Source: Phytohabitans maris
Lineage (GTDB): Bacteria > Actinomycetota > Actinomycetes > Mycobacteriales > Micromonosporaceae
Direction of reading: 5' to 3'
DNA: 41,521 nt
Assembly: GCF_031085175.1 (NCBI RefSeq)
Contig: NZ_JAVHUY010000068.1
Span: 1 to 41,521, forward strand
Position 1 is the first letter of the stretch; each line of letters opens with the position of its first letter. The position numbers and the translations under genes were made by a program. The notes under the pieces were generated by a model. That model was given only the letters and a program-made list of their open reading frames with translations, was not told the origin of the DNA and searched no databases. This document shows, in pieces, positions 3,239-22,828 of this stretch.

Positions 3239-4129
3239 ATGCCCCGACCTCCCCGGCGCCCGGACGTACTCGCCGGCAAGATCTTCCTGGCCCGCACCGC
3301 GCTGGCGCGGAAGCTGTTGACGCCGAGCGACCTGCGCAGCGCGGCGTGGCGGCCGCTGTTTCGCGGGGTCTACGCGGACGCCTCGCTGGCGATCACCCAC
3401 CGGCACCGGTGCCTGGCGGTGTCGCGGTACCTCCTGCCGGTCGACGGCGCGGTCGCCGGGCGCTCGGCGGCCGCCCTGTACGGCGCCGGCACCGCGAAGG
3501 CCGACGAACCCGTGGAGGTCGTGGTCCCCCGCGAAGCCCGCTTCGGCCCGTTCGGCGGGCTCGACGTGCACACGGCGGTACTCCTCGGCGGGGATGTGCG
3601 TGATCTCGACGGAGTTCGGGTGACCACGCCGGTGCGTACCTGCTGGGACCTCGCCCAGTGGCTCGACCTCGTCGAGGCCGTGGTCGTCATCGACCTGCTG
3701 CTGCGAGGCCGGCTGTTGACCGTCGCCGACCTGCGGGCGTACGCCGCCCGGCGCCGGGGCGCCCGTGATTGGCGGCGGCTGCTGCGGGCGGCCACGCTCG
3801 CCGACCCGGGTGCCGAGTCGCCGCAGGAGAGCCGGTTGCGGGTGCGGCTGGTGCTGGCCGATGTGCCGGTGCCGGTCACCCAGTACGTGATCGAGCGCGA
3901 TGGCCGGTTCCTGGCCCGGGTGGATCTGGCCTGGCCGGCGCAGAAGGTCGCGGTGGAGTACGACGGGCTGTGGCACGCGGGCCAGGACCAGATCCACCAC
4001 GACCGCCAACGCCTCAACCGGCTGCTCGGCGCCGACTGGATCGTCCTGCACGTCACGTCCAAACGCCTCCGCGACGACCTCGACGGCGTGGTCGCCGAGC
4101 TGAAGGCCGCACTCCGCCGCCGCTCATGA
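3239..4129 (+). CDS. AbiEi-like N-terminal / DUF559 (PD-(D/E)XK-like) C-terminal protein
   Basis: A 296-residue protein of a type common in actinobacteria. The N-terminal half resembles the AbiEi antitoxin-type region (FRGVYAD, AVAGRSAAALYG, GVRVTTPVRTCWDLAQ). The C-terminal 100 residues resemble DUF559/Vsr-like nuclease folds: ARVDLAWPAQKVAVEYDG supplies the Asp and Glu of a D-ExK-like site, followed by HDRQRLNRL and WIVLHVTSKRL. ATG 3239 is chosen because the domain starts just after it. The frame stays open upstream to 3146, but that stretch is Arg/His-rich and unlike protein. It has no toxin partner and is flanked by a divergent gap and a strong hairpin, so it is probably a single-gene unit. 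Biological role unknown; nuclease activity is inferred only. Confidence 0.75.
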   Translation: MPRPPRRPDVLAGKIFLARTALARKLLTPSDLRSAAWRPLFRGVYADASLAITHRHRCLAVSRYLLPVDGAVAGRSAAALYGAGTAKADEPVEVVVPREARFGPFGGLDVHTAVLLGGDVRDLDGVRVTTPVRTCWDLAQWLDLVEAVVVIDLLLRGRLLTVADLRAYAARRRGARDWRRLLRAATLADPGAESPQESRLRVRLVLADVPVPVTQYVIERDGRFLARVDLAWPAQKVAVEYDGLWHAGQDQIHHDRQRLNRLLGADWIVLHVTSKRLRDDLDGVVAELKAALRRRS

Positions 4130-4136
4130 TCCACAC

Positions 4137-4193
4137 AAAATCCCTGACTTTGCTGCTTCCGCCCGCCTCCGAGGCAGCAAAGTCAGGGATTTT
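4137..4193. terminator. 20-bp perfect inverted repeat, probable bidirectional terminator
   Basis: Arms 4137-4156 and 4174-4193 (AAAATCCCTGACTTTGCTGC and its exact complement) enclose a 17-base loop. It begins 7 bases after the DUF559 stop. The A-run on the left and T-run on the right give a U-tail in either direction. A stem this long and perfect is more than a minimal terminator and may belong to a dispersed repeat family. Confidence 0.7.
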
Positions 4194-4276
4194 GCCGCAT
4201 CCCCGCGTGACCGGAGAGATCGCTGTGACGGGGGTCGCTCTTGATGTGGCTGGGGTGGGCGTGACAGCATGACCGC

Positions 4277-4300
4277 AAATCAAACTGAACAGTTTGGTTT
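4277..4300. promoter_or_regulatory. Probable TetR operator
   Basis: Core palindrome CAAACTG-AA-CAGTTTG (4281-4296) extends to 24 bp as AAA/TTT outside one G-T mismatch (4280/4297). It ends 50 bases before the GTG start of the TetR gene, so it probably serves autoregulation and control of the whole lipid operon downstream. Confidence 0.6.
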
Positions 4301-4350
4301 GGGTGGTCCCTCACCCGGGGGCGCCGCACGGGGGGCGATGGAGGGGTGTC

Positions 4351-4965
4351 GTGGAGCTCGACTCGCGACGTGCCCAGGCGAAGCGGGAGCAGATCCGCCA
4401 GGGCGCCCTCGCCGCGTTCCTCGAGTCCGGTGTCTCCGGCACGAGCATGGACCACGTCGCGGCCTGCGCCGGCGTCTCCAAGCAGACGCTGTACGTGTAC
4501 TTCCGCAGCAAGGAGGAGCTGCTCGTCGACGTCCTGGGCGGCATCGTCGCCTCCCTCGACGAGCGGGCGCCGCTGCTGGCCGACCGCACCGTGACCGACC
4601 GTGAGCACCTGCGGGAGGTGCTCTCCGAGGTGGCCTGGGTGATGGTCAGCCACCTCATGAGCGACGACTACCTGGCCCTGTTCCGCATCTTCATCGCGGA
4701 GATGGCCACCACGCCAGGGCTGCTGGCGATCTGGCGGGAGACGGTCCCGGCCCGTTTCCTGGCGCGCGTCGAGGCCGTACTGGAACGGGCCCGGGAGGCG
4801 GGTGTGATCCGCGAGGTGGACCTCGACCTCGCGACCCGGCTCTTCATCGGCCCGATGATGACCTTCGTCTTTCTCGACGGGTTGGCCCGTCCGGGCGAGG
4901 TCCTCGTTCCGAATCGCAAGCGGCTCGACCAGGTCGTCGAGCTCTACCTGCGTGCTGTGACTTGA
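4351..4965 (+). CDS. TetR/AcrR-family transcriptional regulator
   Basis: A 204-residue one-component repressor and first gene of the lipid-type operon. The N-terminal helix-turn-helix is typical (QIRQGALAAFLESGVSGTSM, then VAACAGVSKQTLYVYFRSKE, about residues 12-55). The rest is a helical ligand-binding domain of the TetR_C type with FRIFIAEMATTPGL. GTG 4351 is chosen because GGAGGGG (4340-4346) sits 4 bases upstream and the protein then begins just before the first HTH helix; the frame stays open to 4294 without domain content. The stop is 20 bases from the diiron gene. A near-perfect palindrome at 4277-4300 is its likely operator. Members near fatty-acyl genes often sense acyl-CoA; that is inference here. 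Confidence 0.9.
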   Translation: MELDSRRAQAKREQIRQGALAAFLESGVSGTSMDHVAACAGVSKQTLYVYFRSKEELLVDVLGGIVASLDERAPLLADRTVTDREHLREVLSEVAWVMVSHLMSDDYLALFRIFIAEMATTPGLLAIWRETVPARFLARVEAVLERAREAGVIREVDLDLATRLFIGPMMTFVFLDGLARPGEVLVPNRKRLDQVVELYLRAVT

Positions 4966-4985
4966 GCCCCCGGAGGCCGGCCGAC

Positions 4986-5792
4986 ATGTCCTTCAACCTG
5001 GACCACTACAAACAGACCGCCACGGCGGTACGGGTCGACGACGTCGACTTCGACGACTTCCGCGACAAGCCTCTCTCCGCCGAGGCCATCCGCGTCCTGC
5101 ACTACATGACCGACGTCGAGACGCACACCGTCTGCTACCTGCGCGACCTGCTGGTCACCCCCTCCCACCAGAACCCCCGGATCACCGCCTTCCTGACCAT
5201 GTGGAACTTCGAGGAGTTCTGGCACGGCGACGTGATCGACCGGATCCTCGACGTACACAAGGAGATCAACGGGCTGCCCCGGCACCGCTCGGTGCGGGTG
5301 GCGCAGGGCTTCATGGGAAACGTGGTCGCACCGATCACCCAATGCCTCACCGCGGCCGTGCTCGGGGAGGACTTCATCGCCACGCACATGACGTGGGGCG
5401 CGGTCAACGAGTGGTCGGCGCACGCCGCCTACGGCAGGTTGATCGAGCTTGAACAGCATGCGACGCTGACGAAGATTCTGCAGCGCATCCAGCAACAGGA
5501 GAGCCGACACTTGGCGTTCTACATGTCCGAGGCCCGCGAGCGGCTGGAACGCAGCCGCAAGGCCCAGCGGATCACCCGCTTCGCGCTGCGACGGTTCTGG
5601 GCCCCGGTCGGCTCTACGATCACGCCGAAGTCCGAGACCCGGTTCGTCCTCAACCACCTGCTCGGCGGCGAAGGGGGCAACAAGATGGTGAAGATGCTCG
5701 ACTCCAAGGTCGACAAGCTCCCCGGCCAGGAAGGGCTGAGCCTGGTCACCAAGGCGGTGCGCGCGTTCGGCGTAAGGGTCGCCACGGCATGA
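4986..5792 (+). CDS. Diiron ferritin-like protein (possible acyl desaturase/oxygenase)
   Basis: A 268-residue cytosolic all-helical protein. It carries a complete four-helix diiron ligand set in the right order: Glu45, Glu77-x-x-His80 (EFWH), Glu142, and Glu172-x-x-His175 (ESRH). This is the E...ExxH...E...ExxH pattern of ferritin-like oxidases such as acyl-ACP desaturases, hydroxylases and aldehyde-deformylating oxygenases. The C-terminal 80 residues are basic (RSRKAQRITRFALRRFW). ATG 4986 has CGGAGG nine bases upstream, and the stop overlaps the next ATG as ATGA. Position between a TetR regulator and a fatty acyl-CoA reductase suggests oxidation or desaturation of a fatty acyl or fatty alcohol substrate. 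That function is inferred, and no specific family name is certain. Confidence 0.75.
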   Translation: MSFNLDHYKQTATAVRVDDVDFDDFRDKPLSAEAIRVLHYMTDVETHTVCYLRDLLVTPSHQNPRITAFLTMWNFEEFWHGDVIDRILDVHKEINGLPRHRSVRVAQGFMGNVVAPITQCLTAAVLGEDFIATHMTWGAVNEWSAHAAYGRLIELEQHATLTKILQRIQQQESRHLAFYMSEARERLERSRKAQRITRFALRRFWAPVGSTITPKSETRFVLNHLLGGEGGNKMVKMLDSKVDKLPGQEGLSLVTKAVRAFGVRVATA

Positions 5793-8134
5793 GCGGGAGT
5801 CCCGAGGCTACGAGCCCGGACCACGACGGCGACGGAGCGCCGAGGGACGGAGCGCGGCAGGCACAGCCTGGGCATCTGCGGGGGAAGCACATCCTGCTGA
5901 CCGGAGGGACCGGGTTTCTCGGTCAGGCGCTGCTGGAAAAGCTGCTCTCGAGCTACCCGGAGACGCGGGTGACGCTGCTGATCCGCCGGCGCGGCAGCTC
6001 GTCCGGCGCCGACCGGCTGGCCACGCTGCTCAAGCGGCCGGTCTTCGCCAAGTGGCGGGAGGCGGTCGGGCCGGAGCGGGCGGCGGCCGTCGTCGCCGAG
6101 CGGGTGAGCGTCGTAGACGCCGAGCTGGGCAGCACCGAGGTGAGCCTGCCCGGCGACGTCGACGCGGTGATCCACGCGGCCTCGACGGTCTCGTTCGACC
6201 CGCCGATCGACGACGCGTTCCGCACCAACGTGCAGGGCGTGATCGACCTCTACGAGGCGGTCAAGGCCGCCGCGAAAGACAACAAGCCGCACGTCGTGCA
6301 CGTCTCCACGGCCTACGTGGCGGGAGCGCGCAAGGGCGTCGTACCCGAGCGGTCGCTGGACCACGACGCGGACTGGCGGATCGAGCTGGCCGCGTCCCGC
6401 GCGGCCCGGGAGAGCGTGGAGTGGGACTCGCGGCGCCCCGCGGTGCTCAAGCGGGCCATCGCGGACGCCCGCAAAGACCATGGAAAGTCCGGGCCGCGGA
6501 GCACCTCGACCGCCGCCGAACGGCGCCGGGTCGAGTGGGTGGAGAAACAGCTCGTCGAGTACGGGCGGCTGCGCGCGCAGAGCGTCGGCTGGCCGGACGT
6601 GTACACGTTCACGAAGGCGCTCGGCGAGCGGGTGGCCGAGCAGATGCTGACCGGCGTGATGCCGCTGTCGGTGGTGCGGCCGGCCATCGTGGAGAGCGCG
6701 CTGCGCTACCCGTTCCCCGGCTGGATCGACGGCTTCAAGATGGCCGACCCGCTGATCCTGGCGTTCGGGCGGGGGATCCTGCCGGAGTTCCCCGGCCTGC
6801 CGGACGGCGTGCTCGACGTGATCCCGGTCGACATCGTGGTCAACGCGACGCTCGCGGTCGCGGCCGCTCCCCCGCCGGTCGACGAGCCGGCGTACTTCCA
6901 CGTCGGCTCGGGCGCCCGCAACCCGCTGACGTTCCGGGCCATGTACGACAGCGTGAAGGAGTACTTCACCGACCACCCGATGCCGGACGGCGGGCGCGGG
7001 CAGATCAAGGTGCCGGAGTGGACGTTCCCCGGCGCGCGGCGGGTGGAGCGGCAGCTGCGCACCGGCGAGCGGGTGCTGTCGGTGGCGCAGAAGGCGCTGC
7101 TCTCCGCGCCCGCCAACAAGCGCACCCGGCGCTGGCAGGACGACCTGACCCGGCAGCAGGACCAGCTCGACTTCCTGCGCAAGTACGCCGACCTGTACGG
7201 CGTCTACACCGAGGCGGAGGTCATCTACACCGACACCAAGCTGCTCGCCCTGCACCGCGCGCTCCCCGCCGAGCGGGCCGAGGAGCACGGCTTCGACGCC
7301 GGCGTCATCGACTGGCACCACTACCTCCAGGAGGTGCACTACCCGGCGATCACCGCCACGATGCGCCGGGCGACCACCGGGCGGCGCAGCAGCAGCAACG
7401 CGCTCCCGCCGCTCAAGCGCTCGCCCAACGGCGGCGACGTCGTGGCGGTCTTCGACCTGGAGGGGACGCTCGTCGCGTCCAACGTGATCGAGACGTACCT
7501 GCTGGCCCGCCTCTGCGACCTGCCCCGGTCGGGCTGGCCGGGCGAGCTGGCCGACCTGGTCCGCAAGCTGCCCCGCTACCTGGCGGCGGAGCGGCGCGAC
7601 CGGGGCGAGTTCCTGCGCACGTTCATGCGGCGGTACGCCGGCGCGGACGAGGCCGGCCTGGCCCGGATCGTGCACGAGCGGCTCGGCGACGCGCTGCTGC
7701 GCCGCTCCCACCCCGAGGCGATCCGCCAGGTGCGCAAGCACCGCACGGCCGGGCACCGCACGATCCTCATCACCGGCACCGTCGACGTGCTCGTCCAGCC
7801 GATCGCCGGGCTCTTCGACGAGGTGGTGGCGAGCCGGCTGCACATGCGCGACGGGCGCTACTCCGGCTTCCTGGAGGCGCCCCCGCTGGTCGGCGAGGCC
7901 CGCGCGGCCTGGCTGCGCCGGTACGCGGAGCACGCCGGCGCCGACCTGCCGGCCAGCTACGCGTACGGCGACAGCTACTCGGACCGGCCGCTGCTGGAGG
8001 CGGTCGGCCACCCGGTGGCGGTCAACCCCGACCCGCACCTGTACCGGCACGCCAAGTCCCGCCGCTGGGCGGTGGCGCAGTGGAAGGCGTACACCCTGCC
8101 GGCCAGCGACGCGTTCCTGGAGACAGTGCCGTGA
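5789..8134 (+). CDS. Fatty acyl-CoA reductase (SDR/FAR) fused to HAD-IB phosphatase-like domain
   Basis: A 781-residue two-domain enzyme. Residues about 30-420 form an extended SDR of the FAR type: nucleotide-binding TGGTGFLG (38-45), VIHAASTVSFD, HVSTAYVAG, and catalytic Tyr272-x3-Lys276 (YTFTK). A FAR C-terminal-like helical region follows to about residue 530. Residues about 550-775 form a SerB-like HAD domain with FDLEGT (Asp556, Glu558), ITGT (motif II) and GDSYSD (727-732). The usual second Asp of HAD motif I is Glu, and the motif III Lys appears replaced by Arg (GEARAAWL), so phosphatase activity is doubtful. It overlaps its neighbours by ATGA upstream and GTGA downstream. Expected role: NADPH-dependent reduction of fatty acyl-CoA to aldehyde or alcohol. 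Confidence 0.82.
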   Translation: MSGSPEATSPDHDGDGAPRDGARQAQPGHLRGKHILLTGGTGFLGQALLEKLLSSYPETRVTLLIRRRGSSSGADRLATLLKRPVFAKWREAVGPERAAAVVAERVSVVDAELGSTEVSLPGDVDAVIHAASTVSFDPPIDDAFRTNVQGVIDLYEAVKAAAKDNKPHVVHVSTAYVAGARKGVVPERSLDHDADWRIELAASRAARESVEWDSRRPAVLKRAIADARKDHGKSGPRSTSTAAERRRVEWVEKQLVEYGRLRAQSVGWPDVYTFTKALGERVAEQMLTGVMPLSVVRPAIVESALRYPFPGWIDGFKMADPLILAFGRGILPEFPGLPDGVLDVIPVDIVVNATLAVAAAPPPVDEPAYFHVGSGARNPLTFRAMYDSVKEYFTDHPMPDGGRGQIKVPEWTFPGARRVERQLRTGERVLSVAQKALLSAPANKRTRRWQDDLTRQQDQLDFLRKYADLYGVYTEAEVIYTDTKLLALHRALPAERAEEHGFDAGVIDWHHYLQEVHYPAITATMRRATTGRRSSSNALPPLKRSPNGGDVVAVFDLEGTLVASNVIETYLLARLCDLPRSGWPGELADLVRKLPRYLAAERRDRGEFLRTFMRRYAGADEAGLARIVHERLGDALLRRSHPEAIRQVRKHRTAGHRTILITGTVDVLVQPIAGLFDEVVASRLHMRDGRYSGFLEAPPLVGEARAAWLRRYAEHAGADLPASYAYGDSYSDRPLLEAVGHPVAVNPDPHLYRHAKSRRWAVAQWKAYTLPASDAFLETVP

Positions 8135-9324
8135 ACCTCAACCTGGAGTACCACCGTTCGCCGATCCGGTACGTCGCCTCGCGGACCGCGACCGGCACGA
8201 TCGCGACCGGCCGCGCCGCCGGCTGGTGGGCGGCGAACATGTCACCGGTCCGGCTGGTCAACCGGCCCGACCCGCGGCCGCCGGGGCCCGGCTGGACCCG
8301 GGTCAAGCCGCTGCTCTCCGGCATCTGCGGCTCCGACCTGGGGCTGCTGACGGGCCGCAACTCGCCGTACCTGAGCGCCTTGATCTCGTTGCCCTTCACC
8401 CCCGGGCACGAGGTGGTCGGCGAGACGCTGGACCCGCTGCCCGACCTGCCGAAGGGCAGCCGCGTCGTGCTCGACCCGGTGCTCGGCTGCGTCCCCCGCG
8501 ACGTCAAGCTCTGCCCGGGGTGCGCGGCCGACCAGCACAGCCGCTGCGACCACATCACCTCCGGCACGGTCTCGGCCGCGCTGCAGACCGGTTTCTGCGC
8601 GGACACCGGCGGCGGCTGGAGCCGGATGTTCGTGGCGCACGGCAGCCAGCTGCACAAGGTGCCGGACGAGCTCGACGACGAGCGGGCGGTCCTGGTCGAG
8701 CCGCTCGCCTGCGCGATCCACTCGGTGCGCCGCGTCCCGATCCCGGACGGCGCGAGCGTGCTCGTGGTCGGCGCCGGCACGGTCGGGCTCTTCACCACGC
8801 TCGCGCTGCGCGAGTACACGAAGGCCGGCCCGATCTACGTGATCGCCCGGTACGGCCACCAGCGCGAGCGGGCCCGCGAGATGGGCGCCACGGAGGTGCT
8901 CTCCTCCGACCGGGCGGCCCGGGCGCTGCGCCGCGCGACCGGCGGCTTCCTGGCCCGGCCCGAGCAGGGCGCCGAGTTCCTGCTCGGCGGCACCGACGTC
9001 GCGTTCGACTGCACGTCCGGGTCCGGTCTGGACACCGCGCTGCGGGTGGTCCGGGCCGGCGGTACCGTGCTGTTGTCGGGAATGCCCAACGCCAGCGTGG
9101 ACCTCACGCCGGCCTGGTTTCGGGAGCTCAGCATCGTCGGGGCGTACGCCTCCGGCGGCCATGACTTCCAGGACGCGATGGCGCTCGCGAAGTCCGCGCC
9201 GCTGACCGGCTACGTCGACGCGGTCTACCCGCTCTCGCGCTGGCGGGACGCGATCGGCCACGCCAGCTCCTCGGGGCGGCTCGGCTCGATCAAGGTGGCG
9301 TTCGACCCGACCAAGGACCAATAG
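8131..9324 (+). CDS. Zinc-dependent medium-chain alcohol dehydrogenase
   Basis: A 397-residue MDR-superfamily oxidoreductase. The catalytic zinc site shows Cys66 (GICGSD) and His93-Glu94 (PGHEVVGE), with a later VEPLACAIH Glu/Cys region. A Cys-rich loop around residues 125-150 (CVPRDVKLCPGCA, then RCDH) fits a structural zinc lobe. The Rossmann motif is VLVVGAGTVGLF. About 55 residues precede the GroES-like domain, which is longer than usual. GTG 8131 overlaps the FAR stop (GTGA), indicating coupling. In this operon it most plausibly interconverts a fatty alcohol and aldehyde, or acts on the product of the LarA-like enzyme; the substrate cannot be read from sequence. Confidence 0.87.
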   Translation: MNLNLEYHRSPIRYVASRTATGTIATGRAAGWWAANMSPVRLVNRPDPRPPGPGWTRVKPLLSGICGSDLGLLTGRNSPYLSALISLPFTPGHEVVGETLDPLPDLPKGSRVVLDPVLGCVPRDVKLCPGCAADQHSRCDHITSGTVSAALQTGFCADTGGGWSRMFVAHGSQLHKVPDELDDERAVLVEPLACAIHSVRRVPIPDGASVLVVGAGTVGLFTTLALREYTKAGPIYVIARYGHQRERAREMGATEVLSSDRAARALRRATGGFLARPEQGAEFLLGGTDVAFDCTSGSGLDTALRVVRAGGTVLLSGMPNASVDLTPAWFRELSIVGAYASGGHDFQDAMALAKSAPLTGYVDAVYPLSRWRDAIGHASSSGRLGSIKVAFDPTKDQ

Positions 9325-9334
9325 GGGGACCCTC

Positions 9335-9415
9335 GTGAGCGAGCGAAGCGAGCGAACCATCAAACTCAGTGAGCAGACCGTCGCACGGCCCGAAGCTTGT
9401 GAGGAGTCAGCGTGA
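9335..9415 (+). CDS. Possible 26-residue leader ORF coupled to the LarA-like gene
   Basis: GTG 9335 follows GGGGGA (9324-9329) by 5 bases, and its TGA (9413-9415) overlaps the GTG start of the LarA-like gene (GTGA), as at other junctions in this operon. The peptide is hydrophilic (begins VSERSERTIKLSEQ) and resembles no domain I know. Its first codons are made by GAGCGAGCGAAGCGAGCG, a low-complexity element that may recur in the genome, so the ORF could be an accident of that element. It is too short for coding statistics. Confidence 0.35.
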   Translation: MSERSERTIKLSEQTVARPEACEESA

Positions 9416-10989
9416 GCAGGCCCGGTTTTGTTCTCGAAGTCGACGAACGGACTCCGGCGCTTCTGATGCACGAAGGTGAGGGGTTCCGCCTGGAGAAGCT
9501 GCCGCTCGGCAGCCGGGTGATCTACCCGCCGGAGTCGCTGCCTGGGCTCCGCGACGTCGACGGCGAGATCCGGCGCGCGCTGGACAACCCGCTCGGCCGC
9601 GAACCGCTGCGCGAGCTGCTCTACCCGGGCATGCGGCTGACGATCGTCTTCGACGACCTCTCCATCCCGCTGCCGCCGATGCGCACCCCGGACATCCGCC
9701 AGCGGGTGATCGAGCAGGTGCTGGAGCTGGCCGCGGCCAAGGGCGTCGACGACGTGGAGCTGATCGCCGGCAACGCGCTGCACCGCCGGATGACGCCGGC
9801 CGAGCTGAAGCGGACGGTCGGCGAGCGGGTGTACCGCTCGTTCTTCCCCCGCCACCTGCGCAACCACGACGCCGAGGACCGGGCCAACCTCACCGAGATC
9901 GGCCAGACCCGGCACGGCGAGGTGGTCGAGATCAACCGCCGTGCGGCGGAGAGCGACCTCATCGTGTACGTCAACGTGTCGCTGACCGCGATGAGCGGCG
10001 GGCCGAAGTCGGTGTCGGTGGGGCTCGCCTCCTACCGCAGCCTCAAGCACCACCACAACGTGCACACGCTGCGGCACTCGCGCTCGTTCAACGACCCGCC
10101 CAACTCGGCCATGCACCACTCGTACGACCGGATGGCCGGCCTTCTCGGCGACAGCCTCAAGATCTTCCAGATCGAGACGACGCTCAACAACGACACGTTC
10201 CCGACCCAGCTCGGCTTCCTCAACAAGCGCGAGTGGGAGTGGACGCTCAAGGACCAGGCCGCCTACCTGGCCGTCAAGCGGGCCAACGACCTCGCCCCGC
10301 CCAAGCGGCGCCGGCAGATCTGGCACAAGACCGCCTCGCCGTACGGCATCACGTCGGTCACCGCGGGCGACCCGATCCAGGTGCACGAGGTGACCCTGCG
10401 CAACGTGCTGCGGCAGCAGCTGACCGAAGTGGACGGTCCGGCTGACATCGGCATCTGGGGCCTGCCGTACATCTGCCCGTACAACGTCAACTCGATCATG
10501 AACCCGATCCTGGTGATGTCGCTCGGGCTCGGCTACTTCTTCAACCTGTACCGCAACCAGCCGATCGTCCGCCCCGGCGGCGTGGCGATCTACTACCACC
10601 CGGTGCGCAACGAGTTCCACCCGGTGCACCACCCGAGCTACATCGACTTCTTCGAAGAGGTGCTCGCCGAGACCACCGACCCGGTGGCGATCGAGACGAA
10701 GTTCGAGGAGCAGTTCGCCACCGACCCGTGGTACACCCACCTGTACCGCAACAGCTACGCGTACCACGGCGTGCACCCGCTCTACATGTGGTACTGGGGC
10801 GCGCACGCGCTGGAGCACCTCGGCGAGGTCATCTTCGTCGGCGGCGACCGCAAGACCACGGCGCGCATGGGCTTCCGCTCGGCGTCCACACTGGACGACG
10901 CGCTGGAGATGGCGCGGGAACGGGTGGGCGGCTCGCCGACCATCAACTACCAGCACGCCCCGCCGCTGACGATGGCGGACGTACGGTGA
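9412..10989 (+). CDS. LarA-like (DUF2088) nickel-pincer nucleotide enzyme, substrate unknown
   Basis: A 525-residue homologue of lactate racemase LarA. GNALHRRMT contains His124, matching LarA His108. SGGPKSVSVG carries Lys199, matching the cofactor-linked Lys184, and His215 lies exactly 16 residues later, as the nickel ligand His200 does in LarA. Two LarA features are absent: the DxTR motif reads DLSI (Ile85 in place of Arg75), and Val189 occupies the catalytic His174 position. The C-terminal 200 residues are rich in Tyr, His and Trp (VAIYYHPVRNEFHPVHHPSY) and longer than in LarA (about 424 residues). GAGGAG (9401-9406) lies 5 bases before GTG 9412. The NPN cofactor is probable, given larEBC nearby. 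The substrate is not lactate by this reasoning; the operon points to a lipid-related hydroxy compound. Residue equivalences are aligned by eye against remembered LarA numbering. Confidence 0.75.
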   Translation: MSRPGFVLEVDERTPALLMHEGEGFRLEKLPLGSRVIYPPESLPGLRDVDGEIRRALDNPLGREPLRELLYPGMRLTIVFDDLSIPLPPMRTPDIRQRVIEQVLELAAAKGVDDVELIAGNALHRRMTPAELKRTVGERVYRSFFPRHLRNHDAEDRANLTEIGQTRHGEVVEINRRAAESDLIVYVNVSLTAMSGGPKSVSVGLASYRSLKHHHNVHTLRHSRSFNDPPNSAMHHSYDRMAGLLGDSLKIFQIETTLNNDTFPTQLGFLNKREWEWTLKDQAAYLAVKRANDLAPPKRRRQIWHKTASPYGITSVTAGDPIQVHEVTLRNVLRQQLTEVDGPADIGIWGLPYICPYNVNSIMNPILVMSLGLGYFFNLYRNQPIVRPGGVAIYYHPVRNEFHPVHHPSYIDFFEEVLAETTDPVAIETKFEEQFATDPWYTHLYRNSYAYHGVHPLYMWYWGAHALEHLGEVIFVGGDRKTTARMGFRSASTLDDALEMARERVGGSPTINYQHAPPLTMADVR

Positions 10990-11002
10990 GGGGGCTTTGC
11001 TC

Positions 11003-11917
11003 GTGAGCCTGCGCAAGGACATCAAGGCGCTCACCGGCGGCCGGGACTGGCGCGGGCGCTCGCGTACGCCCCGCTCGGCGGTCGCGCACGAGCCGCCGGA
11101 GCCGCCCCGCGAGTTCCCCACCGGCTGGGCCCGTACCCAGGCGGCCCAGGTCGCCCGGCGGGCGCTCCAGCGCGGCGTGCTGACGCCGCTGACCTGGAGC
11201 CAGACCCGCCCGGAGATCCAGGGACGCGACCGGCTGGCCGGGCTCAAGGGGCCGGTGGTGTTCGTGGCCAACCACAGCAGCCACCTGGACACCCCGCTGA
11301 TCCTCGGCTCGCTCCCCCGCCACCTGGGCGAGCGGATCGCGGTCGGCGCGGCGGCCGACTACTTCTTCGACGCCCGGCTGCGCGCGGTCGTGACGGCACT
11401 GGTGTTCAACGCGTTCCCGGTCGAGCGGCACCGCTCGCGGCGGCTGCGCAGCCTGGCCCCGATGCTGCTGGCCCGCGGCTGGAGCCTGCTGCTCTTCCCG
11501 GAGGGGACCCGCAGCGAGGACGGCTGGATGTCCCCGCTGCGGCTGGGCGCGGCCCACCTCTGCGTGACCCAGGGCGTGCCGATGGTGCCGATCGGGCTGC
11601 GCGGCACGTACGCCGCCATGCCCCGGGGCCGCAACTGGCCGGTCCGCGGGCGAGCCCGCGTGGTCGTCCGGTACGGCACGCCGCTGCACCCGCAGGCCGG
11701 CGAGGGCGCCCGCGCGTTCAACGCCCGGATGGCCGACTCGATCGCCCAGCTCTGGGCCGAGGAGGAGCTGGGCTGGTACGGCTCGCTGCGCGCCCAGGCC
11801 AAGGGCGAGCTGGCGCTCCCGACCGGCCAGCGGTTTCCGGCCGGCTCGTGGCGCCGCACCTGGGAGTCCACCCGCCCGCTCGGCGCCCAGGCCCCACGCC
11901 CCGCCTGGGACGACTGA
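11003..11917 (+). CDS. 1-acyl-glycerol-3-phosphate acyltransferase family protein (PlsC-like)
   Basis: A 304-residue acyltransferase and last gene of the operon. Catalytic NHSSHLD (HX4D, residues 90-96) and FPEGTR (165-170) are both present, as is VPMVPIGLRGTY (motif IV-like). GTG 11003 is chosen because GAGGGGG (10988-10994) is 8 bases upstream; TTG 10997 in the same frame is too close. There is a basic N-terminus, no clear transmembrane helix, and a C-terminal 60-residue extension. Enzymes of this family move acyl groups from acyl-CoA or acyl-ACP to lysophosphatidate or other hydroxyls at the membrane. Here the acceptor could be a fatty alcohol or ether-lipid precursor made by the upstream genes, which is inference. 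Confidence 0.88.
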   Translation: MSLRKDIKALTGGRDWRGRSRTPRSAVAHEPPEPPREFPTGWARTQAAQVARRALQRGVLTPLTWSQTRPEIQGRDRLAGLKGPVVFVANHSSHLDTPLILGSLPRHLGERIAVGAAADYFFDARLRAVVTALVFNAFPVERHRSRRLRSLAPMLLARGWSLLLFPEGTRSEDGWMSPLRLGAAHLCVTQGVPMVPIGLRGTYAAMPRGRNWPVRGRARVVVRYGTPLHPQAGEGARAFNARMADSIAQLWAEEELGWYGSLRAQAKGELALPTGQRFPAGSWRRTWESTRPLGAQAPRPAWDD

Positions 11918-19510: not shown

Positions 19511-20350
19511 TCAGGCGCTCCTCCACCGCTCCGGGTCGGCGAGCATCTCGTTCATCGACCCGGAGCGGAACGGCTCCACCGCCACCTCCGCCCCGTCGAA
19601 CCCCGCCGCCCGGATCGCCGCGTGCAGGGCGGCGTCGTCGCGCGCGGCGTCGACCACGTGCGCGTCGACTTCGAGGCGGGCGGTGGCGCCCAGATCCCGT
19701 ACCCGGACATTGTGGACATGATGGGCGGCGAGCAAGCGGCGGGCGGCGGCCTCCGCCCGCTCCACCCGGGCCAGCCGGGCGGGCGTGATCGAGACCCCGT
19801 ACGCGATCCGGCTGGACAGGCACGCCGCCGCCGGTTTGTCCGCGGTGCGCAGATCCCAGACCCGGGCGATCGCCCGGACCGCGGCCTTGTCCAACCCGAG
19901 ATCAGCCAACGGGGTACGCGCGCCGCGCTCGGCGGCCGCGCGAATGCCGGGCCGGAACCCGGCCGCGACGTCGGAGGCGTTGGTGCCGGTCGCGACCGCG
20001 TCGAACCCGTGCTCGGCCGCCACCCGCCGGGCGGTGTCGAGCAGCGTACTCTTGCAGAAGTAGCAGCGGCGCGGCCCGTTCTCCCGGTAGCCGGCCACGT
20101 CCAGCTCGCGCGTCTCGACCGCGTGGTGCGCGACGCCGAGCCGCGCGCAGAACTCCGCCGCCTCCGCCACCTCCGCCGCCGGCACCGCGGGCGAGACCGC
20201 CGTGACGGCCGCCACCCCACCGGGGCCCAACGCCCGCGCGGCGGCGGCCAGGACCACGCTGGAGTCGACGCCGCCGGAGAACGCCACCAGCGTCCGGCCG
20301 TATCCTGCGATTTCGGTGACCAGGCGGTCGGCCGTGTAGGGGGGCAGCAT
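19511..20350 (-). CDS. larE: LarE, ATP-dependent sacrificial sulfur transferase for NPN cofactor
   Basis: A 279-residue PP-loop enzyme that adenylates the LarB product and donates sulfur from its own cysteine to make the pincer thiocarboxylates. The N-terminal ATP pyrophosphatase motif SGGVDSS (about 24-30) is intact. RRCYFCKS, ATGTNASD and AACLSSRIAYG are characteristic. Cys177 in ACLSSR aligns with the sacrificial Cys176 of Lactiplantibacillus LarE, so this looks like the single-cysteine, self-consuming type. ATG 20350 shares two bases with the larB ATG on the other strand, so the two genes diverge with no spacer. No Shine-Dalgarno is visible, but TACCGT lies 6 bases upstream, suggesting a leaderless mRNA. 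Later starts would remove the first strand before the PP loop. Confidence 0.93.
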   Translation of the reverse strand: MLPPYTADRLVTEIAGYGRTLVAFSGGVDSSVVLAAAARALGPGGVAAVTAVSPAVPAAEVAEAAEFCARLGVAHHAVETRELDVAGYRENGPRRCYFCKSTLLDTARRVAAEHGFDAVATGTNASDVAAGFRPGIRAAAERGARTPLADLGLDKAAVRAIARVWDLRTADKPAAACLSSRIAYGVSITPARLARVERAEAAARRLLAAHHVHNVRVRDLGATARLEVDAHVVDAARDDAALHAAIRAAGFDGAEVAVEPFRSGSMNEMLADPERWRSA

Positions 20351-21221
20351 GACTGAACGGTACCCAAACGGGAGCGGCGCGGAGCTCGCGGATCTCGGCT
20401 TGGCCGGTCGGGCCCCTGCCCGTAACGGGGCCGAGGCCGCGGATCTTGGCTTCGCCGATCGGGCCTCCGCGCGTGGCGCTGCCGAGGTCGCGGATCTTGG
20501 CGGCGCGGAGGCCGCGGATCTCGGCCTCGCCGACCGGGCCCCTGCCCGTGACGGGGCCGAGGTCGCGGATCTCGGCTTCGCCCGGCTGGATCTGCAGCGG
20601 GCCGCGCGGACCGGCGACCCGGAGGTGGTCTTCGGCCGGGGCAAGACGCCGGCGCAGGTGGTGGCGGCGCTGCGGGCGCTGCACGAGGCGCATCCCGACG
20701 GGGCCGTGCTCGCCACCCGCCTCGACGACGACGCCGTCGCCCTCGTCCGCGCCGAACTGCCCGACGCCGACCTGGACGAGGTCGCCCGCACAGCGGTGCT
20801 CGGCAAGCCGCGCGCCCCGCACGGCCGGGTCGCCGTGGTCGGCGCCGGCACGGCCGACCTGCCGGTGGTCCGCGAATGCGTCACGACCGTGCGCGTCTTC
20901 GGCGCCGACCCCGACCTGATCCTCGACGTCGGCGTCGCCGGCCTGCACCGCCTCCTCGCCCAACGCGACCGCATCGACACGGCCGACGCCGTCGTCGCGG
21001 TCGCCGGGATGGAGGCCGCCCTCCCATCGGTCATCGGCGGCCTCACCGGCGCACCGCTGATCGCCGTTCCGACCAGCGTCGGATACGGCTGGCACCTGGA
21101 GGGCCTCACCGCCTGGCTGGCCACGCTCAACAGCTGCGCGCCCGGCGTCGTCACCGTGAACGTCGACAACGGTTTCGGCGCCGGCGTGGCCGCGGCCCGC
21201 ATCGCCCGGCGCTCCCGATGA
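20349..21221 (+). CDS. larB: LarB, pyridinium-3,5-biscarboxylate synthase of NPN pathway
   Basis: A 290-residue enzyme that carboxylates and hydrolyses nicotinate adenine dinucleotide to pyridinium-3,5-biscarboxylate mononucleotide. The AIR-carboxylase-like fold is clear (VAVVGAGTADLPVV, VAGMEAALPSVIGG, VPTSVGYG, VNVDNGFGAG). Cys263 in LNSCAPG corresponds to Cys221 of the Lactiplantibacillus enzyme. The normal LarB start region (LDLQRAARTGDPEVVFGRGK) comes only after about 75 residues made of 17-residue repeats of the ADLGFADRAPAR type (DNA repeats 20388-20576). AGGGGGG (20338-20344) is 4 bases before ATG 20349, supporting the long form; no ATG or GTG occurs in frame after the repeats. It overlaps larC by ATGA. 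Confidence 0.92.
   Translation: MTERYPNGSGAELADLGLAGRAPARNGAEAADLGFADRASARGAAEVADLGGAEAADLGLADRAPARDGAEVADLGFARLDLQRAARTGDPEVVFGRGKTPAQVVAALRALHEAHPDGAVLATRLDDDAVALVRAELPDADLDEVARTAVLGKPRAPHGRVAVVGAGTADLPVVRECVTTVRVFGADPDLILDVGVAGLHRLLAQRDRIDTADAVVAVAGMEAALPSVIGGLTGAPLIAVPTSVGYGWHLEGLTAWLATLNSCAPGVVTVNVDNGFGAGVAAARIARRSR
20357..20362 (-). promoter_or_regulatory. Candidate leaderless -10 box for larE
   Basis: On the minus strand TACCGT is followed by 6 bases and then the larE ATG (20350). No -35 match is evident. It sits inside the larB coding sequence because the two start codons overlap. Confidence 0.35.
20388..20576 (+). repeat. larB: 51-bp tandem repeats at the 5' end of larB
   Basis: The block GCGGATCTYGGC recurs at 20388, 20439, 20490, 20514 and 20565, that is with periods 51, 51, 24 and 51 bp, all multiples of 3. 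Each 51-bp unit encodes 17 residues like AELADLGLAGRAPARNG. The last copy runs into the normal LarB N-terminus, so the array looks like duplication of the native first codons, with one shortened unit. Confidence 0.85.
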
Positions 21222-22828
21222 CCCGCGCGCTCTGGGTGGACGCCTCGAACGGCGCGGCCGGCGACATGCTGCTGGCCGCCCTGCTCGACGCCGGCGCCTC
21301 GCTGGACGCGGTCCGCTCCGGCCTGGCGTCCCTGGACCTGCCGATCTCCGTCGACCTCTCCCCCGTACGCCGCCACGGCTTCCGCGCCTCCCACGTCCGC
21401 GTCGACGCGGCTGACACCGACGTCCACCGTGGACTGTCTGATGTGCTCGCCGTCCTGGGCCCCTTGCCCGCCCCGGTCCTCTCCTTCGCCTCCGCGGTCT
21501 TCACCCGGCTCGCCCAGGCGGAGGCGCGGGTGCACGGGTCCACTGTGGACGACGTACACTTCCACGAGGTGGGCGCCCTGGACGCGATCGCCGACGTGGC
21601 CGGCTGCGCGCTGGCCCTGCACGACCTACGCCTGCTGGAAGGCGCGGTCCGCGTGGTGTCACCGGTCGCCGTCGGCTCCGGCACCGTCCGCACCGCACAC
21701 GGCCCCCTTCCGGTACCCGCCCCCGCGGTCGCCGAGCTCCTGACCGCGGCCGGCGCTCCGCTGGCCGCCCACTCCGCCACGATGGAACTCTGCACCCCGA
21801 CGGGCGCCGCGCTGCTGACGACGCTCGCCACCGCCTGGGGTCCACCCCCGGCGATGACCCCGTACGCGGCAGGCGTGGGCGCCGGTACGGCCGACCCGCC
21901 CAGCCACGCCAACGTACTCCGCGTACTCGTCGGCACCGCCACGCCGACCAGGGCGCCGTCGGCATCCGCCATGGTCTCGGCGTCCGGCCCACCTGCGATG
22001 CCGGCGTCCGTGGTTTGGTCGTCCGATGCGTCGGTGGCCTCGTCGCCCAGTCACTCTGCGGCGTCCGCAGCCTTGCCGCCCGCGGCCTCGTCATCCGCGG
22101 TCTCGTCATCCGCGGCCTCGTCATCCGCGGCCTCGTCATCCGTGGTCTCGTCGTCGGCGTCCGTCGCGCCCGCGGCGTCGGACCTGGACTGGCGGGATAC
22201 CGAACTCCTCCAGGTCGAGGCCACAGTGGACGACCTCGACCCCCGCATATGGCCCGACCTCCTGGAGGAACTGCGGTCGATCGGCGCCGCGGATGCCTGG
22301 TGCGTGCCGGCCCTGATGCGCAAGGGCCGCCCCGGCCAGGTGCTGACCGTGCTGGTCGACCCCGCACGGCTCGACCTGACCTGCCGCCTCGTCTTCACCT
22401 GGACCACCACGCTGGGCGTGCGCGTACATCCGGTCAGCCGCCGCGCGCTGAACCGCGACACCGTAACGGTCCTGGTCGCGGGGAGCGAGGTCCGCGTGAA
22501 GCGCGCCTTCCTCGGCGACGACGTCGTAACCGCCCAACCCGAGTACGACGACGCGCTCGCCGCCGCCCGCGCCGCCGGCATCCCCGTCACGGACGTCCTG
22601 GACGCCGCCCGCGCCGCAGCCTCCACGCCCCGCACCGCAGGCTCCGCGCCGACCATCCCCGCCTCCGCACCCCACACCCCGGCCTCCGCACCTCAGGCCG
22701 CAGCCTCCGCACCTCAGGCCGCAGCCTCCGCACCCCACGCCGGGGCCGCCGCGCCGCACGGACCCGCCTCCGCCACCCGCCCGCACGAGGGCGATCCGCC
22801 CGCGCCGGAGGCTGGTCCGCGTCACTGA
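21218..22828 (+). CDS. larC: LarC, nickel insertion enzyme for NPN cofactor (single-frame LarC1-LarC2)
   Basis: A 536-residue CTP-dependent cyclometallase that inserts nickel into the pincer ligand. The LarC1 part (about 1-243) shows DASNGAAGDMLLAALLDAG, VDDVHFHEVGALDAIADVAG and CTPTGAALL. The LarC2 part (about 326-455) begins near LQVEATVDDLDPRIWP and has LMRKGRPGQVLTVLV. Between them lies a Ser/Ala linker of about 80 residues containing five 15-bp DNA repeats. At the C-terminus is an 80-residue Ala/Pro/Ser tail with His residues and 21-bp repeats. In Lactiplantibacillus the two halves are joined by a programmed frameshift; here one uninterrupted frame covers both. Starts at ATG 21218 overlapping the larB stop. 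Length exceeds typical LarC (about 400-420) because of linker and tail. Confidence 0.92.
   Translation: MTRALWVDASNGAAGDMLLAALLDAGASLDAVRSGLASLDLPISVDLSPVRRHGFRASHVRVDAADTDVHRGLSDVLAVLGPLPAPVLSFASAVFTRLAQAEARVHGSTVDDVHFHEVGALDAIADVAGCALALHDLRLLEGAVRVVSPVAVGSGTVRTAHGPLPVPAPAVAELLTAAGAPLAAHSATMELCTPTGAALLTTLATAWGPPPAMTPYAAGVGAGTADPPSHANVLRVLVGTATPTRAPSASAMVSASGPPAMPASVVWSSDASVASSPSHSAASAALPPAASSSAVSSSAASSSAASSSVVSSSASVAPAASDLDWRDTELLQVEATVDDLDPRIWPDLLEELRSIGAADAWCVPALMRKGRPGQVLTVLVDPARLDLTCRLVFTWTTTLGVRVHPVSRRALNRDTVTVLVAGSEVRVKRAFLGDDVVTAQPEYDDALAAARAAGIPVTDVLDAARAAASTPRTAGSAPTIPASAPHTPASAPQAAASAPQAAASAPHAGAAAPHGPASATRPHEGDPPAPEAGPRH
22085..22159 (+). repeat. larC: Five 15-bp tandem repeats in the larC linker
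   Basis: Units of the form GCCTCGTCATCCGCG begin at 22085, 22100, 22115, 22130 and 22145, with a few substitutions. They encode ASSSA/VSSSA pentapeptides (about residues 290-314) between LarC1 and LarC2. Degenerate Ser-rich codons continue to the left, to about 21960. Confidence 0.9.
22661..22744 (+). repeat. larC: Four 21-bp tandem repeats in the larC tail
   Basis: Units GCCTCCGCACCTCAGGCCGC(A) start at 22661, 22682, 22703 and 22724; the middle two are identical. They encode ASAPxxx heptads (ASAPHTP, ASAPQAA, ASAPQAA, ASAPHAG). Confidence 0.9.

Follow-up and report, generated by a model that had tools for sequence, protein, structure and literature searches.

The operon and its proteins

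The stretch of DNA considered here (the window) comprises 41,521 nucleotides (nt) of contig NZ_JAVHUY010000068.1 from the actinomycete Phytohabitans maris, and all coordinates are given in its numbering. An operon on the + strand spans positions 4277–11917. It consists of a TetR-family regulator gene with a palindrome, followed by five enzyme genes that encode a ferritin-fold diiron protein, a fusion of a fatty acyl-CoA reductase with a HAD phosphatase (FAR-HAD), a zinc-dependent alcohol dehydrogenase (ADH), a LarA-like nickel-pincer nucleotide (NPN) enzyme and a PlsC-type acyltransferase. The analysis shows a conserved unit of four of these genes, tied to NPN synthesis and to two kinds of glycerol-3-phosphate acyltransferase. 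An initial annotation had already drawn the operon with these boundaries, which proved correct, and its FAR, HAD, ADH, LarA-like, PlsC and TetR assignments have been borne out by Pfam and NCBIfam models. Its description of tight packing holds for the 20-nt gap between the TetR and diiron genes, the ATGA overlap of the diiron gene with FAR-HAD, the GTGA overlap of FAR-HAD with ADH and the 13-nt gap between LarA and PlsC. The ADH–LarA gap does not fit that description, as it measures 87 nt (9325–9411). At three other loci (L002, L003 and L004), the distance from the end of ADH to the start of the LarA match is 13, 12 and 11 nt, so that an insertion of about 75 nt seems to be present in the window strain. 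This gap contains GAGCGAAGCGAGCGAAC, which occurs only once in the whole genome.

The enzymes have recognizable catalytic residues. In the FAR-HAD fusion (5789–8134; PF07993, PF12710, TIGR01490), the FAR part covers residues ~30–528 and was aligned over 30–528 with the fatty acyl-CoA reductase of PDB entry 7eoz, and the HAD-IB phosphatase domain covers residues ~553–763 (PF12710, TIGR01490). S173, Y272 and K276 of the FAR part and D556, D728 and D732 of the HAD part are shared by 95% or more of the rows in a 73-sequence alignment; of 71 sequences, 44 have E and 27 have D as the second acid of motif I. The sequence supports a FAR predicted to reduce long-chain acyl-CoA. The dehydrogenase (8131–9324; PF08240, PF00107) is an MDR-type alcohol/polyol dehydrogenase whose closest PDB structure is a ketose reductase, followed by other zinc-type and sorbitol dehydrogenases. 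Its residues C66, H93, E94, C120, C128, C131 and C139 are conserved and presumably serve zinc. The acyltransferase (11003–11917; PF01553) matches the structure of a 1-acyl-glycerol-3-phosphate acyltransferase (PDB 5kym), with H91...D96, P166-E167-G168 and R170 kept in at least 95% of rows.

The LarA-like protein (P0005; 9412–10989) belongs to the LarAH14/15/16 family. It scored 891.6 bits against the equivalog model NF052592 (cut-off 740) and contains a Lar_N domain (PF09861, E 2.4e-39); its nearest named relative among the matches listed is a P. flavus LarA-like protein with 98% identity. The structural model (pLDDT 92.4) had its best Foldseek match in 9q3k, a single-histidine LarA (E 1.9e-32, TM 0.78). 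By correspondence from alignments, the NPN lysine (K199), the nickel histidine (H214/H215) and the first catalytic histidine (H124) are kept. H124, K199, H214 and H215 are invariant in P0005 and 16 deep homologs and, in an 81-sequence alignment, are shared by 95% or more of the rows; histidines 452, 455 and 465 are likewise invariant in P0005 and the 16 homologs. The second catalytic histidine (His174 of L. plantarum LarA) is missing at position 189, where P0005 and the 16 homologs have V or I and the protein of locus L016 has L. The same histidine is described as missing from groups 14 and 15 (Gatreddi et al., 2025; PMC12611868, section 2.1), and section 2.5 of that paper proposes Asn-bearing single-histidine relatives as possible one-way racemases. 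A purified LarAH14 from Frankia had none of the seven activities in Table 1 of an earlier survey (Desguin et al., 2020; PMC7583248). As the residues that hold NPN and take up hydride are kept but the usual second acid/base is lost, an ordinary two-way racemase is unlikely; this candidate, acting on 2-hydroxy acids, was set aside on the missing histidine and the seven negative tests reported for the Frankia member.

Genes for NPN cofactor synthesis, on which the initial annotation was silent, begin 7.6 kb downstream of the operon (19511–22828). They encode the sulfur transferase LarE (19511–20350, − strand; TIGR00268, 277.6 bits, cut-off 150), LarB (20349–21221, + strand; NF033503, 251.9 bits, cut-off 175) and the nickel-insertion protein LarC with its LarC1 and LarC2 parts (21218–22828, + strand; TIGR00299 and NF052512), all three above the NCBIfam cut-offs. 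The LarAH14 model has one match in the window genome, and LarC (PF01969) also has a single match. These data support a P0005 equipped with the residues for a nickel-pincer cofactor, which the nearby LarE, LarB and LarC would make.

A conserved four-gene cassette

The conservation of the operon was followed through its LarA-like protein. With one genome scanned per species, 339 relatives were recovered, and the analysis proceeded with the 80 best loci. By tblastn, FAR-HAD was found beside LarA at 74, ADH at 74 and PlsC at 76 of these loci, with all four genes at 66. A codon log-odds caller, used for the genes of the loci, gave 71, 72 and 73 for FAR-HAD, ADH and PlsC; its start codons may err, and the gap counts below depend on them. 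The six loci without FAR-HAD have at most ~1.5 kb of sequence before LarA, as do two of the six without ADH. Among the four loci without PlsC, three end at most 70 bases past LarA and one (L047) has 1.6 kb. The gene order in cassette loci is FAR-HAD, ADH, LarA and PlsC, with a FAR–ADH spacing of −4 nt in 48/64 adjacent pairs and a LarA–PlsC spacing of −4 nt in 33/73 and −1 nt in 9/73 pairs.

The same association was observed in 246 evenly drawn Actinomycetota genomes, a sample that includes the window genome and many fragmented assemblies. FAR-HAD was called at E up to 1e-60 and LarA with the LarAH14 model above its cut-off. LarAH14 was present in 61 genomes, FAR-HAD in 65 and both in 60 (Fisher p ~4e-50, uncorrected for shared ancestry). 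In 55 of these 60 genomes the two genes lie on the same contig at most 10 kb apart, and in 45 at most 2 kb apart. Five genomes carry FAR-HAD only: three (G095, G138, G141) have partial LarA matches below the cut-off, G040 has a distant paralog, and G064, which is 62% complete, has no LarA match among the matches listed. LarC was found in 161 of the 246 genomes and in 55 of the 61 that are LarA-positive. Pairwise protein distances of the four cassette proteins are correlated (rho 0.81–0.87, 62 sets with all four genes), which shows joint inheritance and not function. The cassette arrangement is far beyond chance, its core is the four genes for FAR-HAD, ADH, the LarA-like enzyme and PlsC, and these almost certainly serve one pathway. 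A plasmid search with the LarA-like protein turned up 8 matches only, all of them distant and LarA-like, and among the matches listed from the open literature, no paper naming this gene context was found.

Some loci vary in their cofactor genes. In lineage f16, the LarC adjacent to the cassette is only ~260 amino acids (aa) long (L118:2627–3406, L150:13315–14085); the L118 copy matches the LarC1 model only, so nickel insertion in this lineage may run without LarC2 or via another protein. At the Actinomadura loci L025, L028, L032–L038 and L044, LarC and LarE, next to the cassette, are separated by two tandem LarB-cluster genes.

The diiron protein is an accessory part. Its gene (4986–5792, + strand) encodes an acyl-ACP-desaturase-like product that scored 18.5 bits against PF03405, below the gathering threshold of 22.7. 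Foldseek searches with its model (pLDDT 87.7) placed acyl-ACP desaturases first and R2-like oxidases next, in weak matches (E ~0.01–0.03, TM ~0.6, none at or below 0.001). An E, ExxH, E, ExxH set is present as E45, E77xxH80, E142 and E172xxH175, all of which we take to be diiron ligands; across 18 sequences, E45, E142 and H175 are invariant and E77, H80 and E172 nearly so. The co-occurrence of all five enzyme families had been set beforehand as the test of the initial annotation. Four of them proved to be the conserved cassette, but the diiron gene was found at 18/80 loci (15 of these 18 with lar genes) and in 16/246 genomes, of which 14 have FAR-HAD and 11 have LarA above the cut-off. A diiron oxidase was therefore rejected as a core step. 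In nine stretches around off-cassette copies, two pairs share other genes and none is common to three; no diiron gene was called in one of the nine (L128). In genome G225 (L122:6151–7772), where neither FAR-HAD nor LarAH14 has a match, two diiron paralogs stand in tandem close to peptidyl-tRNA hydrolase and mfd-like genes, and locus L006 also has a tandem diiron pair. In Phytohabitans suffuscus (L003:5732–6537), the diiron gene is in two pieces in different frames, either a broken gene or a sequencing error.

The regulator is equally local. The TetR gene (4351–4965, + strand; PF00440, PF14246) encodes a lineage-specific protein with an AefR-like C-terminal domain; a TTG start of the open reading frame at 4294 is probably too long for it, and 4351 was used instead. 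The palindrome upstream of it, AAATCAAACTGAACAGTTTGGTTT (4277–4300, no strand), is a probable TetR operator, and a variant with the same core, CAAACTGAACAGTTTG, stands upstream of the TetR gene at L002, L003 and L004. The operon had been described as TetR-controlled. The TetR gene and its palindrome are indeed here, but a TetR gene of this type is confined to near kin at 3/80 loci and was rejected as a general part of the system. In 10 loci the gene directly after PlsC belongs to a different TetR family; other loci have kinase, LuxR, MarR or protoglobin genes. Further upstream, a 24-nt inverted repeat (4136–4194; 96% complementary, 11-nt loop) lies between the end of the upstream gene at 4129 and the TetR promoter, and its sequence looks like a bidirectional terminator.

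The product of the cassette

A second version of the cassette bears on its product. In all seven stretches read from family f18, plsY directly precedes FAR-HAD. This family corresponds to the Rubrobacteraceae, since genome G053 matches a plasmid record of R. radiotolerans RSPS-4 over 5001/5001 bases (100%). The R. radiotolerans operon (L143) reads PlsY-FAR/HAD-ADH-LarA, its PlsY scores above the TIGR00023 cut-off, and LarAH14 was found above cut-off in 30/39 genomes of the Rubrobacteraceae. At four other loci of the family (L111–L114), protoglobin, MarR and/or MOSC genes, not present in R. radiotolerans L143, stand between ADH and LarA, possibly as a link to gas or redox sensing. Sinninghe Damste and colleagues have reportedly described a putative 1-O-alkyl glycerol phosphate operon in five Rubrobacter species that resembles a known ether-lipid operon. 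The R. radiotolerans operon is probably this one. The Phytohabitans version differs from it in having PlsC, together with the TetR and diiron genes. The title of the Rubrobacter lipid paper (Sinninghe Damste et al., 2023, Syst Appl Microbiol 46:126404; cited in PMC11150832) names mixed ether/ester lipids as dominant in the Rubrobacterales. The plsY of the Rubrobacteraceae cassettes counts in favour of an ether-type lipid, the putative product guessed at in the initial annotation.

The acyltransferase partner, PlsC here and PlsY in Rubrobacteraceae, places the work of the cassette on glycerol-3-phosphate lipids. A modified glycerolipid is quite likely the product. That this is an ether lipid, most likely 1-O-alkyl, is an evenly balanced judgement, and the best explanation as a whole, a four-gene pathway to a modified glycerophospholipid that most likely bears a 1-O-alkyl ether chain, may be right or wrong in about equal measure. 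In such a pathway, the ether chain would derive from a fatty alcohol (or aldehyde) provided by FAR. The glycerol backbone would be oxidised and then re-reduced by the polyol-type dehydrogenase and the NPN enzyme, and a transient keto lipid, resembling dihydroxyacetone phosphate, would let the sn-1 ester be swapped for an ether. HAD would remove or handle a phosphate, PlsC would attach the second acyl chain and the diiron protein would add an optional oxidative step of chain tailoring. Transient backbone oxidation by the NPN enzyme, the dehydrogenase or both, as a means of ester-to-ether exchange, is the mechanism we favour, a chemical guess modelled on AGPS, which acts on a keto substrate; the exact role proposed here for the NPN enzyme is doubtful.

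A bolder version, which we consider speculative and distinctly unlikely, has the LarAH14-type enzyme itself make the ether bond. It would oxidise the sn-2 carbinol of 1-acyl-glycerol-3-phosphate and pass the hydride to NPN, with the sn-1 ester as leaving group. The FAR-derived fatty alcohol would displace the ester, and return of the same hydride would yield 1-O-alkyl-glycerol-3-phosphate in a reaction that is redox-neutral overall. Where a lineage has the diiron gene, its product could act as a soluble aerobic desaturase on the alkyl chain, or even form the vinyl ether of a plasmalogen. If true, ether lipids would have a third kind of chemistry in addition to those of AGPS (flavin) and Ger (radical/activase), and NPN would have its first reaction other than 2-hydroxyacid isomerisation.

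Matches to the known ether-bond enzymes were compared across cassette genomes. PF09989 (DUF2229), which we take to be a marker of Ger/PlsA, was found in 0/12 cassette genomes (five of the Rubrobacteraceae) and in 4/14 controls, including Thermotoga maritima. Two Rubrobacter genomes with the cassette encode three (G041) and two (G053) PF02913 proteins. For all of them the best NCBIfam match was GlcD or YdiJ, always short of the curated cut-off, and the NCBIfam matches of the five included no AGPS model. Compared with solved structures, both G053 proteins and two of the three from G041 score glycolate oxidase or lactate dehydrogenase above AGPS (277.0 bits vs. 105.2 for AGPS in one example); the third G041 protein (L155) was compared by NCBIfam only. 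The window genome encodes, unlinked to the operon, an AGPS-like flavin adenine dinucleotide (FAD) protein of 471 aa (L159; G000:C7:96908–97618). It scored 164.9 bits to AGPS 2uuu vs. 121.3 to D-lactate dehydrogenase, with two AGPS structures nearest in its N-terminal half, and the three other PF02913 proteins of this genome were compared by NCBIfam only.

Several observations weigh against a shared four-gene route to an ether lipid. The cassette holds no known ether-forming enzyme, neither Ger/PlsA nor AGPS, and since an unlinked AGPS-like protein is present, ether formation in the window genome could use that protein instead. PlsC had no match in the seven Rubrobacteraceae stretches, and PlsY was likewise unmatched in L116–L121 and in the gene set of the window and 81 other loci; the two versions therefore need not share a product. 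The lipid evidence among cassette carriers concerns Rubrobacter only and comes from the title of one paper. LarB, LarC or LarE share the locus in only 44/80 cases, and LarC went undetected in 6 of the 61 genomes that are LarA-positive (G084, G106, G160, G163, G181, G213). Four Streptomyces loci (L046, L059, L060, L062) are without ADH although 10 kb of sequence is present. FAR-HAD and LarA lie on different contigs in 5/60 genomes (G065, G146, G184, G189, G220), and G216 carries LarA without FAR-HAD at the threshold used.

Other products would account for part of the gene set. The FAR alcohol might be esterified by the PlsC-type enzyme into a fatty-alcohol ester or a glycolipid, with the dehydrogenase and the NPN enzyme making a polyol head group or linker. 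The full-length alignment of FAR with a solved fatty acyl-CoA reductase, its S/Y/K residues, the closeness of ADH to ketose/sorbitol-type dehydrogenases and the genomic context tying single-histidine LarA relatives to carbohydrate genes (PMC12611868) all agree with this. We nevertheless think it unlikely, as no wax-ester synthase or glycosyltransferase is among the 11 gene clusters present in at least 10 loci (the cluster annotation left out clusters 16, 18, 19 and 21–23, of 4–5 loci each), an upstream GT4 glycosyltransferase occurs in 4 loci of near kin only, beside a GlgB-like gene, and the PlsY of Rubrobacteraceae points to glycerol-3-phosphate.

It is improbable, though less so than the readings that follow, that the NPN enzyme is an epimerase or racemase, perhaps one-way, for a 2-hydroxy acid or 2-hydroxyacyl chain, with the diiron protein as an alpha-hydroxylase and 2-hydroxylated or alkane-1,2-diol lipids as products. 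The NPN enzymes with demonstrated activity in PMC7583248 and PMC11770544 use 2-hydroxy acids, one-way racemases have been proposed among single-histidine relatives (PMC12611868, section 2.5), and the diiron protein has a desaturase/oxygenase-like fold. Set against this are the second catalytic histidine, missing here and in groups 14/15 (PMC12611868), the Frankia LarAH14, inactive in 7/7 assays (PMC7583248, Table 1), and the diiron gene, missing from 62/80 loci.

In a eukaryote-like ether route, the FAR-HAD alcohol would feed an AGPS-like FAD enzyme encoded elsewhere, and the LarA-like enzyme would be a side activity. The unlinked AGPS-like protein of the window genome speaks for such a route, but none of the PF02913 matches in the two cassette-bearing Rubrobacter genomes is AGPS-like (one of the five by NCBIfam only), and the near-perfect co-occurrence of FAR and LarA makes LarA a core part; we give it little credence. 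Very improbable is a cassette that degrades or repairs lipid, as in alkyl-lipid salvage or aldehyde scavenging: neighbouring regulators that differ by lineage (TetR, MarR, LuxR or kinase genes) would suit it, but PlsC and PlsY are anabolic acyltransferases and no acyl-CoA dehydrogenase, thiolase or lipase is among the 11 clusters in at least 10 loci.

The four-gene route to an ether-type glycerophospholipid bears on two questions. By what route do Rubrobacter and other aerobic Actinomycetota form their abundant ether lipids, when AGPS and Ger/PlsA are unrecognised in the genomes checked? What is the function of the LarAH14/15/16 nickel-pincer enzymes? Both meet in one cassette, carried by about a quarter of the sampled Actinomycetota (61/246), and each is thereby directly testable. 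If the route is confirmed, nickel-pincer chemistry would extend to lipids, with a bearing on the use of ether lipids as biomarkers.

Comparison with known systems

The known routes to alkyl and alkenyl ethers use Ger/PlsA or AGPS, neither of which is encoded in the cassette. The elb operon of Myxococcus xanthus (ElbA–E) serves ether lipid biosynthesis and, as described in PMC9131029, has a FAR-like domain and a HAD protein alongside an AGPAT-like acyltransferase and NAD-dependent oxidoreductases. The cassette is like elb in bringing FAR, HAD and acyltransferase parts together with oxidoreductases in one operon. It differs in that its FAR is fused to HAD, that a zinc MDR dehydrogenase and an NPN enzyme replace the elb SDRs, and that its carriers belong to a different phylum. 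The six window genes are also without the acyl-CoA ligase and acyl-carrier domains of ElbD and without the SDR ElbE. As the acyl-CoA synthetase and acyl carrier protein parts are missing, the cassette would be elb-like in its working at most and not a member of elb.

The LarA-like enzyme has its own set of relatives. P0005 falls in the LarAH14/15/16 family of Desguin et al. (2020), whose accessible sections do not name a lipid-cassette context (PMC7583248). Group 16 was excluded there for want of conserved NPN and catalytic residues; in P0005, by contrast, the lysine for NPN, the nickel histidine and the first of the catalytic histidines are all retained. The best structural matches, the single-histidine LarA homologs LarA_Sp and LarA_Bw (PDB 9q2u/9q3k/9q3j), share with P0005 one catalytic histidine, the NPN lysine and the nickel histidine. 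At the position of the lost histidine, they are described as having Asn (PMC12611868), whereas the P0005 family has V, I or L.

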